A DNA stretch of 5,641 bases from assembly GCA_030673425.1 (NCBI GenBank), contig DAOVJB010000091.1, positions 1 through 5,641 of the forward strand. Reading direction: 5' to 3'. The notes beneath the pieces are model-generated. The model ran no database searches. It was not told the DNA's origin and saw only the letters and a program-made list of their open reading frames with translations. Each line of letters starts with the position of its first letter. Within the stretch, counting starts at the first letter, position 1. Positions 1,363 through 5,641 of the stretch are shown here, piece after piece. Position numbers and translations under genes: made by a program. This stretch comes from Elusimicrobiota bacterium. GTDB taxonomy: Bacteria; CAYTYR01; UBA6262; DAOVJB01.

Positions 1363-2313
1363 ATGATTAAATTCATCACAGTAAAAGAAATGTTTGAGGA
1401 AAAAAGAGAGGAGTTAAAACTTGAGGTAATCTCAGGAGGTAGAAAGGGACTTTCAAGGAAGATAAAAGTCTTTTTGATTAATCGTCCGGGACTAGCTCTG
1501 GCTGATTATTTCGATTATTTTGGTTACGGAAGGTTGCAGATATTAGGTAAGACGGAGTTTTCTTACCTGAGGAAGCTTTCTAAGAAAAAAAGATACGAAA
1601 TATTCAAGAAATTATTTTCATATAATATTCCATGCGTTGTAATAACAAGAAAAATACGGGTACCTCATGACTTGATTAGAGCAGCCCAGAAAGAGGATAT
1701 CTCCATTTTAAGAACGGCATTAATGACTAATAAGTTTATTAATAAGATAAGTTTTTATCTGGAAGAGAAATTTGCTCCCAGTACGAGTTTACATGGTGTA
1801 TTGATCGATATTTATGGAGTAGGAGTATTAATATTAGGCGATAGCGGGATAGGTAAAAGTGAATGTGCTTTAGAACTGATAAAAAGAGGCCATAGGCTAG
1901 TTACTGACGATGTAGTGGAGATAACCCTTAAACCTGATGGTGTTCTTACAGGTTGTAGCGGTGTGGAGTTTGCTAAACACCACATGGAAGTTAGAGGTTT
2001 AGGTATTATTGATATTAAGAATTTATTCGGTACTGGTGCTATTCGTGACTTCTGCCAGATTGATTTAGTTATTAATCTGGAAGGGTGGGATAGTTCAAAA
2101 GAGTATGACAGGCTGGGATTCGAGGATTACAAATTTAGTATATTAGGAATAGAACTTCCCCAGTTGATCATTCCTGTTGGTCCCGGTAGAAATGTTGCGA
2201 TTATTGCAGAAGTAGCAGCAATGAATTGGAGATTGAAAGCCAAAGGCTACAACGCAGCTAAAGAGCTTAATAGAAGATTGATTAATGTAATGCACGCTAA
2301 GAAGGGGAAATAA
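1363..2313 (+). CDS. hprK: HPr kinase/phosphorylase (HprK)
   Basis: A 316-residue bifunctional HPr(Ser) kinase/phosphorylase of normal length, starting MIKFITVKEMF; a GTG three codons earlier would give 319. Residues 1 to about 130 are the N-terminal domain. The catalytic domain then shows HG at 144-145, the Walker A loop GDSGIGKSE (159-167), the acidic pair D182-D183 in RGHRLVTDDVVEI, the family signature MEVRGLGIIDIKNLFG (208-223), R250 in the phosphatase-loop segment YDRLG, and the C-terminal PVGPGRNVAIIAEVAAMN (271-288). These correspond to the known active-site set of the Lactobacillus casei enzyme, so it should be active. The family phosphorylates HPr on Ser46 using ATP or PPi and also reverses this. 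It sits between ptsN and two mannose-type PTS genes, the usual place for a PTS regulatory operon outside Firmicutes. HPr itself is not seen. The gap to the next gene is 23 bases. Confidence 0.95.
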   Translation: MIKFITVKEMFEEKREELKLEVISGGRKGLSRKIKVFLINRPGLALADYFDYFGYGRLQILGKTEFSYLRKLSKKKRYEIFKKLFSYNIPCVVITRKIRVPHDLIRAAQKEDISILRTALMTNKFINKISFYLEEKFAPSTSLHGVLIDIYGVGVLILGDSGIGKSECALELIKRGHRLVTDDVVEITLKPDGVLTGCSGVEFAKHHMEVRGLGIIDIKNLFGTGAIRDFCQIDLVINLEGWDSSKEYDRLGFEDYKFSILGIELPQLIIPVGPGRNVAIIAEVAAMNWRLKAKGYNAAKELNRRLINVMHAKKGK

Positions 2314-2321
2314 TTCCCTTT
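2302..2321 (+). repeat. Small hairpin over the hprK stop codon
   Basis: Bases 2302-2309 (AAGGGGAA) can pair with 2314-2321 (TTCCCTTT) as an 8-bp stem including one G-T pair, with a four-base loop that holds most of the TAA stop. No T-run follows, so it is not a terminator. It may affect coupling to the following EIIA gene, whose Shine-Dalgarno AAGGTGGA begins at 2326, or it may be chance. Confidence 0.3.
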
Positions 2322-2336
2322 ACCTAAGGTGGACAG

Positions 2337-2762
2337 ATGATTGGTGTAATTATTGTTACCCATGGAGATTTAGGCAAGCAATTGGTGAAAACCAGCGAGG
2401 CTATTGTGGGAGTGCAGAAAGGTGTCATCAGTCTTTCTTTGTTTCCCGAAGAGGGTATTGGCGACTTGAAGCGAAAAATTACCGAGGCACTCGATAACTT
2501 AGGTGCAGAAGATGGCGTAATAATCTTTACTGATATGATAGGAGGAACTCCTACTAATACAAGTTTATCCTTCGCTCAACGTGAAAGATTAGAAGTTATT
2601 ACTGGCATTAATTTACCAATGCTTCTGGGATTCTTTTCTTGTAGAGAAGTGATGTCATTGGACGAGCTTTCTGATAAACTTTGCCAGACAGGGCATAAGA
2701 GTATTGTTAACGCAAAAAAAATTTTCTTAAAAAAATTGGAAGACCAGAAAAATAAAAAATAA
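2337..2762 (+). CDS. Mannose-family PTS EIIA component (ManX N-domain-like)
   Basis: A 141-residue stand-alone EIIA of the mannose/fructose/sorbose PTS family. It starts MIGVIIVTHGDLG, with His9 as the phosphorylated histidine (His10 in E. coli EIIAB-Man). Asp66 in FTDMIGGTPTN is equivalent to E. coli Asp67, which orients that histidine. The LPMLLGF strand after TGINLP is also typical. The last 20 residues are lysine-rich. In complete systems this cytoplasmic subunit takes phosphate from HPr and passes it to EIIB for sugar uptake through EIIC/EIID. Here EIIB follows after 27 bases, but no EIIC or EIID does, so a regulatory role is plausible. AAGGTGGA at 2326-2333 lies very close to the ATG (three bases). 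A dihydroxyacetone kinase DhaM-type EIIA is an alternative but unlikely, since no Dha genes are near. Confidence 0.9.
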   Translation: MIGVIIVTHGDLGKQLVKTSEAIVGVQKGVISLSLFPEEGIGDLKRKITEALDNLGAEDGVIIFTDMIGGTPTNTSLSFAQRERLEVITGINLPMLLGFFSCREVMSLDELSDKLCQTGHKSIVNAKKIFLKKLEDQKNKK

Positions 2763-2789
2763 CTCTCATTTATAAATGGTGTCTTGATC

Positions 2790-3269
2790 ATGAGTTCAGT
2801 TTTTTTCCGTATCGATGACCGTCTTATCCATGGAGTGGTAGTGCAAAGCTGGGTTAAGGCCTTAGATATAGAACATATTGTTGTGGCTGATGATAGGGTT
2901 GCTAATGATCAGATGCAAAAAACCCTTCTTATTATGGCAGTGCCTCCTTCCTTAAAAATTTCAATCTTCAGCATCAAGGAATCCGTACAAAGGCTTAAAA
3001 AGGGAGAGTTTAATAACGAAAATGTTTTAGTTCTTATATCTACTCCGTGTGATGCCTTATTTTTAGTGAAGGATGGATTAAATCCCGTCTCGATTAATGT
3101 TGGTGGATTGCATTTTGCCCCCGGGAAAAAGCAGATATTAAAGGCTATATCTGTAAATGATAATGATATAGATGCATTTTGCCAGATTAATGATATGGGG
3201 ATTAAATTAGAAGTGAGAATAATTCCCTCCGATACCAGCGTTGATATTATGAAATACATAAAGAAATGA
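2790..3269 (+). CDS. Mannose-family PTS EIIB component
   Basis: A 159-residue EIIB of the mannose/sorbose family. FFRIDDRLIHG near the N-terminus holds the active-site His14, and VADDRVANDQMQKTLL, PPSLKISIFS and the INVGG turn (102-106) are family-typical. The end, RIIPSDTSVDIMKYI, is complete, so the length is normal. EIIB takes phosphate from EIIA on this histidine and normally gives it to the sugar bound in EIIC/EIID. Family members usually read HGQV after the histidine; this one reads HGVV. The start is ATG 2790. A TTG two codons upstream (2784) is in frame, but the only Shine-Dalgarno-like bases (GGTG, 2778-2781) sit eight bases from the ATG and two from the TTG. That site is weak, so translation may depend on coupling to EIIA. 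It is followed by the GH57 gene after only 14 bases, not by permease genes. Confidence 0.9.
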   Translation: MSSVFFRIDDRLIHGVVVQSWVKALDIEHIVVADDRVANDQMQKTLLIMAVPPSLKISIFSIKESVQRLKKGEFNNENVLVLISTPCDALFLVKDGLNPVSINVGGLHFAPGKKQILKAISVNDNDIDAFCQINDMGIKLEVRIIPSDTSVDIMKYIKK

Positions 3270-3283
3270 GCTGAGAGGACTAG

Positions 3284-5641
3284 ATGAAAAAAATCAATTT
3301 TGCTATCGGGATTCATAACCACCAGCCCACAGGTAATTTTGATTTTGTTTTTGAGGATGCCTCCAAGAAGGCATACGGTCCTTTTTTAGGGGTGTTAAAA
3401 AAGCATCCCTGGATAAAGGTAACCTTACATTATAGCGGTTGTTTGTTTGAATGGCTCCTGAGGAACCGGCCGGACTTGATAAAGACAATAAAAGAAATGA
3501 TTCAAAAAGGTCAGGTTGAATTAATGACAGGCGGATTCTATGAGCCTATACTAACTGTCTTACCTGACAGGGATAAGTCAGGACAGATTGATAAATTATC
3601 AGGTTTTATAAAAAAACATTTTGATTGCAGCCCCAGAGGAATGTGGCTTGCTGAACGTATATGGGAGCCTCATTTGGCCAAATCCATTAATGAGGCCGGG
3701 GTTGAATATGTAGTGGTTGATGATGCCCATTTTAAGCTGGTAGGACTCACTGAAGAGGAGTTGTTCGGGTATTATGTAACTGAAGAACAAGGGGCAACGC
3801 TAAAAATATTTCCCATAAGTAAAAAGTTAAGATATTATATTCCGTTTGAAACTCCTGAGAAAACTATTGACTATCTTGCCGAATGTGGGAATGAGGACGG
3901 TGAACGTCTTGTTGTTTTAGCCGATGACGGTGAGAAATTCGGAATCTGGCCTGAGACATATAATTCTGTATATAAAGAAAAGTGGCTGGAAAGATTTTTT
4001 AATCTCATTAAAGATAACCAGGACTGGATTAACATTACCACCTTTGGCGAATATATAGATAAATATTCTGCCCGGGGCAGAGTATATTTACCGTGTGGTG
4101 CTTATAGTGAGATGATGGAATGGGCTTTGCTACCAGAGGCGGGACAACAGTATAGGGAAGTATTAGAAGAGATTAAGGCATCAGTCAATTTCTCTAAATA
4201 TGAACATTTTTTTAAGGGTGGTTTCTGGCGTAATTTTTTCATCAAGTATCAGGAGGCTAACAACTTACATAAAAAAATGCTTTATGTTAGCGATAAAGTG
4301 GCAAAAATGTCTTGCGATAGGAGCAAATTTAAACAAGCTCAAGATGAATTATGGCAGGGGCAGTGTAACGATTCTTACTGGCATGGAGTTTTCGGCGGAT
4401 TATATATGGCTCACTTGAGAGAAGCTGCTTACGAGCATTTAATAAATGCAGAGATTTTAACTGAGGGGGCTTTGTATAAAAATAAAAAATCCTGGATTGA
4501 GAAAGAAGTCGTCGATTTTGATAAAGATGGTCAAGATGAAATTCTCATTAATACGCCCAAGTTTAATCTCTATTTTGATCCCCAGGATGGGGGATCTTTG
4601 TTCGAGCTGGATTATAAAGAGAAATCTCTCAATTTAACTAATATATTGACAAGAAGAAAAGAAGCATACCACGAAAAGATTATTGAGTTTGTAAGGAATA
4701 AATACCTTCCGCTGGAAGAGGAGTCTAAAAAGTCAGAAACAATCCATAACATGTTGACAGTTAAAGAAGAAGGGCTGGAGGAATATCTTAAATATGACTG
4801 GTATCGCAGGGCATCATTTCTGGATCACTTTCTGCCTCCTTTTGCGAATTTGGAATCGTTCTATAGCTGTGATTATCGGGAAGCCGGAGATTTCGTAAAC
4901 CAGCCGTATGATTTCAAACTGAATAAAAAAAATGATAGTTTGGTTCTACAGCTCTTCCGTGACGGGCATGTATGGATCGGGGATGATTTTTTACCTTTAA
5001 GAATAGAAAAAGAGATTGTTATTGGGCAATCTTCGAAGTTAATAGTTAATTATTCAATACTTAATTTAGCAGACAGGAAAATCCCTGTTTGGTTTGGCGT
5101 GGAGTTTGGTTTTATGGCAACAAGCGGGAATGATAAGAAATGTTATTATTCTCTTGGGAAAAAGGATATTTCTGATAATAAACTGGACAGTATTAGAGAA
5201 GAAAGCAAGGTAGACGAGATCAGCATGGTTGATGAATATAAAGGGGTAGATATTTGTTTAGAATTTGATAAGACGGCAACTTTATGGCGTTTTCCTTTAG
5301 AAACAATCTCTCAGTCAGAGAGCGGGTTTGAAAGAAGCTATCAGGGCTCAGTCATTTTTCCTAATTGGAAGATTGAGCTGGAACCGGAACTTCCCTGGAA
5401 GAGATTTACTGCTTTTTATGATTTATCGGTTTCGGCAGAGGATATTGTTGACCGCTGGGATTATGACCTTTCAACTCTTAAGTTTATGGGTGATGCTTTT
5501 CCCTATGCATGGCCGAGTTTCGGGCCAGGTGTTTTTTCCGCATTTCTGGGCGCCGAAATTCATACTGACGATAGAACCTGTTGGTTTTATCCGGTGAACA
5601 ATGTTGAGATTAACGAAATCAGCCTTTCTTATAATCAAGAG
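3284..5641 (+). CDS. GH57 4-alpha-glucanotransferase-type enzyme, 3' end beyond window, with unexpected C-terminal extension
   Basis: An open frame of 786 codons with no stop before the window edge. It begins MKKINFAIGIHNHQP after a GAGAGGA site. All five GH57 regions are visible: HNHQP (11-15), GQVELMTGGFYEP (76-88), WLAERIWEP (121-129) with nucleophile Glu124, DDGEKFG (214-220) with acid/base Asp214, and KGGFWRNFFIKYQEANNLHKKM (311-332). The sequence follows Thermococcus litoralis 4-alpha-glucanotransferase closely, with nearly identical numbering of the two catalytic residues (123 and 214 there). It continues with QCNDSYWHGVFGG (360-372), DFVNQPY (536-542) and YQGS (686-689) of the DUF1925/DUF1926 beta domains. 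The family transfers alpha-1,4-glucan segments or cuts them, in glycogen and maltodextrin turnover. No signal peptide is seen, so it is cytoplasmic. The family enzyme ends about where residue 716 is here; the frame then runs on into a different-looking sequence (see 5435-5641). Alpha-amylase activity is the main alternative. Confidence 0.92.
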   Translation, partial: MKKINFAIGIHNHQPTGNFDFVFEDASKKAYGPFLGVLKKHPWIKVTLHYSGCLFEWLLRNRPDLIKTIKEMIQKGQVELMTGGFYEPILTVLPDRDKSGQIDKLSGFIKKHFDCSPRGMWLAERIWEPHLAKSINEAGVEYVVVDDAHFKLVGLTEEELFGYYVTEEQGATLKIFPISKKLRYYIPFETPEKTIDYLAECGNEDGERLVVLADDGEKFGIWPETYNSVYKEKWLERFFNLIKDNQDWINITTFGEYIDKYSARGRVYLPCGAYSEMMEWALLPEAGQQYREVLEEIKASVNFSKYEHFFKGGFWRNFFIKYQEANNLHKKMLYVSDKVAKMSCDRSKFKQAQDELWQGQCNDSYWHGVFGGLYMAHLREAAYEHLINAEILTEGALYKNKKSWIEKEVVDFDKDGQDEILINTPKFNLYFDPQDGGSLFELDYKEKSLNLTNILTRRKEAYHEKIIEFVRNKYLPLEEESKKSETIHNMLTVKEEGLEEYLKYDWYRRASFLDHFLPPFANLESFYSCDYREAGDFVNQPYDFKLNKKNDSLVLQLFRDGHVWIGDDFLPLRIEKEIVIGQSSKLIVNYSILNLADRKIPVWFGVEFGFMATSGNDKKCYYSLGKKDISDNKLDSIREESKVDEISMVDEYKGVDICLEFDKTATLWRFPLETISQSESGFERSYQGSVIFPNWKIELEPELPWKRFTAFYDLSVSAEDIVDRWDYDLSTLKFMGDAFPYAWPSFGPGVFSAFLGAEIHTDDRTCWFYPVNNVEINEISLSYNQE
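5435..5641 (+). other. In-frame extension resembling the interior of URO-D-like / corrinoid methyltransferase-like proteins
   Basis: After the GH57 C-terminal domain, residues about 718-786 read EDIVDRWDYDLSTLKF, then MGDAFP (735-740), FGPGVFSAFLGAE (746-758) and a T-x-WFYP motif (765-770). From memory, the combination of GDAFP, GPGxxxAFLGAE and T-x-WF-x-P is typical of uroporphyrinogen-decarboxylase-family proteins annotated as URO-D-like or trimethylamine-corrinoid protein 2-like. In those proteins this block lies some 50-100 residues inside the protein, so the usual start of the domain appears to be missing. No start codon with a ribosome-binding site exists near the junction; the first in-frame ATG (5486) falls inside the conserved block. 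GC content by hand count is about 42% after the junction and 40% before, giving no sign of a composition break. It is a fusion, a hybrid gene from a deletion, or an assembly join; the window edge hides the rest. Confidence 0.55.

Follow-up and report, generated by a model that had tools for sequence, protein, structure and literature searches.

An apparent in-frame fusion of a GH57 glucanotransferase with a URO-D-like piece at the end of an Elusimicrobiota contig is almost certainly an artefact

The window, meaning the whole stretch of DNA analysed here (5,641 bp), is the entire contig C170 (G000:C170) of a metagenome-assembled genome (MAG) of 1.32 Mb in 199 contigs, 88% complete and with 4.7% contamination. 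At its left edge (positions 1-120) lies what we take to be the C-terminal end of an LptB-like ABC-transporter ATPase, cut by the contig start. The + strand then carries genes for a ribosome hibernation promoting factor (211-771; TIGR00741, E 1.4e-24, above cut-off), a type 2 PTS EIIA of the PtsN/fructose type (841-1299; PF00359, E 3.3e-42), an HPr kinase/phosphorylase (1354-2313; TIGR00679, E 1.9e-110, above cut-off), and two upstream operon partners of the gene considered below, a mannose-type PTS EIIA (2337-2762; PF03610, E 7.6e-29) and a mannose/sorbose-type EIIB (2784-3269; PF03830, E 1.3e-48). The order EIIA type 2, HPr kinase, mannose-type EIIA, EIIB, GH57 recurs in two phylum relatives, G001 and G002, apart from one additional gene, and in G001 the hibernation factor also stands first, as it does in the window. 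What is presumably a rapZ-like gene lies between hprK and the mannose-type EIIA gene in both relatives (L037:5324-6214; L036:8632-9516). It is absent from the corresponding place in the window (2313-2337), and a search for a homologue elsewhere in the MAG gave no convincing match (best E 0.019).

From an ATG at 3284 a single frame stays open through 786 codons to the last base, 5641, as the preliminary description of this DNA had stated, and it ends there because the contig stops. Nearly all of it (3284-5404) is a GH57 4-alpha-glucanotransferase gene, complete except for about its last 10 codons, as judged from its Pfam domains, from the alignment with the Thermococcus litoralis enzyme (1k1w) and from the tails of about 25 relatives. 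By Pfam, Glyco_hydro_57 spans residues 7-270, the middle domain residues 313-392 and AmyA-gluTrfs_C residues 411-706; these matches (PF03065, PF09094, PF09095) lie within residues 1 to about 708, and each is far above its cut-off. Residues 1-700 align with 1k1w at E 2.7e-158, and the conserved E124 and D215 are aligned to E123 and D214 of 1k1w, which we take to be the catalytic nucleophile and the acid/base residue, respectively. By similarity to 1k1w, the protein would be a glucanotransferase rather than a hydrolase or a branching enzyme. When the approximately 25 GH57 relatives are aligned, their proteins end shortly past the point equivalent to window residue 708 or so.

Beyond this point the frame enters a different protein family. 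The last part of the window (5405-5641) is a piece of a URO-D-like, methyltransferase-like gene, whose N-terminus is absent and which is cut by the contig end. Window residues 700-783 match residues 43-126 of the stand-alone protein L055 with 62% identity and an E value of 4e-30 among the frames compared, which is far beyond chance. Both parts had been correctly identified in the preliminary description. The relatives of the tail are stand-alone proteins of about 360 amino acids, found in Latescibacterota (L055, 62% identity), Poribacteria (L056, 53%) and further genomes. Full-length members open with a segment of about 42 residues that carries the pattern W..WW.GxxxRP or a related form; such a segment occurs in nearly all of the full-length relatives, and in 11 members W21 is invariant and R27 nearly so. 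The WW.GxxxRP-type segment was not found in the window, where GH57 sequence precedes the URO-D-like part. The domain start had been reported as missing, and indeed the first 42 or so residues of the family are not there.

The label "URO-D/methyltransferase-like" is reasonable for this family, and not firm, because the likeness to Pfam URO-D, CdmB and MetE is weak. A profile search of residues 700-786 had been proposed as a check. The tail alone gave no match in Pfam or NCBIfam, and PF01208 (URO-D) was matched weakly by 4 of 11 full-length family members (best E 1.1e-4). When the family profile was compared with the PDB, CdmB came up at E 0.013 and MetE at E 0.53. A structure prediction of the family from two sequences had a mean pLDDT of 42 and was unusable. 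One candidate tail relative, L057, was rejected as an unrelated chance match to the peptide WKRFTAFY.

Several further arrangements were seen in this family. A second, divergent URO-D-like gene adjoins the first in several genomes (L031:585-2864; L100, L104, L106), which suggests a paired arrangement. In L031 this pair is followed immediately downstream by a gene for a 517-residue GH57-like protein (PF03065, E 8.6e-27), which itself stands upstream of a transporter-like gene; it is a gene-neighbour link of the GH57 and URO-D-like families in another genome. In genome G019 (L029, - strand) the URO-D-like gene looks like a frameshifted pseudogene, since it occupies two frames, at reverse positions 1325 and 1396, which cover family residues 2-59 and 61-144.

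A genuine functional enzyme, in which GH57 carries a C-terminal URO-D-like domain and the GH57 tail replaces the N-terminus of that domain, would represent an enzyme architecture not described before, as had been suggested. Its attraction lies in the frame, which has no stop up to the contig end, and in L031, where a URO-D-like gene (1770-2864) adjoins the GH57-like gene (2980-4533). Against it, no GH57-URO-D fusion was found in 471 distinct genomes, a scope that comprised 386 genomes of the relatives set, 5 of the window's own phylum, and 9, 82 and 3 of three other phyla. Some of these genomes hold both genes separately: G049, G435, G436 and G448 carry them on separate contigs. In two other phyla, about 40 additional GH57 tails were compared and none stays open through the URO-D-like part; in a scan of GTDB species, none of the three loci returned holds a fusion, and the two relatives of the tail that came up are not fused. 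The search for other genomes with the same two-domain protein, which had been recommended, thus came back empty among the 471. The segment with the invariant tryptophan is missing as well, and a native-looking GH57 end followed by EIIC exists elsewhere in the same MAG, as described below. We therefore consider a functional two-domain protein very improbable, and the idea of a lineage-specific enzyme that would connect alpha-glucan remodelling with one-carbon or demethylation chemistry deserves just as little credence.

What normally follows the GH57 gene can be seen in other members of the phylum. In all four of the other phylum genomes examined, the GH57 gene ends with a stop codon, 13 residues past a conserved Trp, and is followed by a mannose-type PTS EIIC gene, with gaps of 8, 1, 4 and 243 bp. 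The gap of 243 bp belongs to G003, so tight spacing is not universal; in that genome the GH57 gene itself is divided between two contigs. The URO-D-like gene was absent from all four relatives when they were searched for it.

A search of the MAG for EIIC and EIID led to one place, the very start of contig C60, on the + strand. Bases 2-34 of C60 encode GIQLEIKEKR followed by a stop codon, and the ATG of EIIC comes 2 bp later; the order is then EIIC, EIID, HPr, PtsI, SIS and LepA, close to that of G002. The peptide has only 10 residues, and its alternating pattern is like that of the final strand in GH57 tails, for example WKTKIDIQLNKT or WQTTIKFTLKNIED. It has no other obvious owner, since the MAG contains one GH57 gene of this type, and it would thus belong to the GH57 gene of the window, of which the start of C60 is the likely natural continuation. 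If base 1 of C60 were the last base of the codon AGA at 5402-5404, the GH57 protein would end 12 residues past the conserved Trp, compared with 11-13 in the nearest relatives. Because no overlap of at least 8 bases was found between the end of C170 near the join and the start of C60, this exact fit is only a proposal, and the connection of the two contigs depends on synteny and reading frame, not on sequence in common.

The content of C60 bears directly on another proposal, that of a simple genomic deletion fusing GH57 to a downstream URO-D-like gene. A deletion end point could well produce a URO-D-like part that starts at about residue 43. However, contig C60 of this MAG keeps EIIC, EIID, HPr, PtsI, SIS and LepA, all in their native order, and a deletion is contradicted by the presence of the very genes that it would have removed, unless C60 comes from another strain. 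We regard such an event as scarcely credible.

The reading that we favour, with a probability of roughly 0.88, is that the 3' end of the window is an assembly chimera whose last 240 or so bases are a wrong join. An apparent fusion is almost certainly an artefact here, because the likely real end of the GH57 gene, together with its normal neighbours, starts contig C60. Among the three explanations originally put forward (undescribed fusion, deletion hybrid, assembly chimera) it is the last that is supported; the first finds no support, and the second, as a simple deletion, is contradicted.

GH57 gives way to the foreign tail at some point within about 5381-5404, a zone delimited by the GH57 tails, the URO-D-like alignment and the DNA itself. 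These codons read EPELPWKR; GH57 tails have P..W here, and the URO-D-like family has the pattern EPxLPxxxF in the same register. During assembly or library preparation, a normal GH57 gene of a mannose-type PTS operon would have been joined, about ten codons before its end, to an internal piece of an unrelated URO-D-like gene. Chance would have kept the frame, probably since EPELPW-like codons occur in both parents in the same register: if they shared a nearly identical stretch of about 20-24 bases, assembly with a short k, or a template switch, could pass between the two genes with the frame intact, and we infer that the join was due to such a short common stretch. The true gene would end in GIQLEIKEKR and a stop codon and run straight into EIIC, as at the start of C60. 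The join lies about 240 bases from the contig end, and the foreign stretch would thus correspond to about one to two short-read lengths.

The donor of the tail piece was not found; its nearest relatives are proteins with about 50-62% identity, and no other parts of the URO-D-like gene were detected in the MAG, where a DNA search with the tail gave only matches of chance length. Composition and codon usage were uninformative as a test of foreignness: the tail falls inside the range of the MAG, with 18% of coding segments having an equal or higher GC content. For this reason the piece could stem from the same genome or from one of similar GC.

The composition and codon usage of the piece are compatible with a real recombinant in part of the population, where insertion of a URO-D-like piece into the 3' end of GH57, or recombination with it, would give a hybrid or a pseudogene in some cells, other cells keeping the order seen on C60. 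The in-frame join fits with this as well. C60 could be an insertion's far junction or derive from a different strain, and in a MAG of this completeness and contamination the remainder of the URO-D-like gene may have been missed by chance. But the URO-D-like gene occurs in no phylum relative, a piece that lacks its N-terminus offers no obvious reason for retention, the join is near the contig end, and there is no second GH57 copy that would mark a second strain. We find a recombinant of this kind unlikely, and prefer the chimeric join.

Such a case calls for some caution, as about 240 bases of in-frame chimeric sequence at the end of a contig can be mistaken for a new domain fusion. A cheap check is to seek the next gene of the operon at the start of another contig in the same bin.

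The two parts of the frame can be set beside known proteins. The T. litoralis GH57 enzyme 1k1w matches window residues 1-700 over its full length, and the window retains the three Pfam domains and both catalytic residues; 1k1w ends at 659 residues with no extension, whereas the frame of the window runs about 80 residues further into an unrelated piece. The stand-alone URO-D-like proteins L055 and L056 match window residues 700-783 through their residues 43-126, with 53-62% identity. In the window, by contrast, residues 1-42 are missing, as is all that would lie past the contig end, and none of these relatives is fused to GH57. GUNC detects chimerism from the lineage homogeneity of contigs (PMC8201837). 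The window resembles chimeric contigs of metagenome-assembled genomes in that two unrelated genes are joined in one contig, near its end. Its foreign piece is only about 240 bases long, however, and a detector of chimeras that works gene by gene would probably miss so short a stretch.
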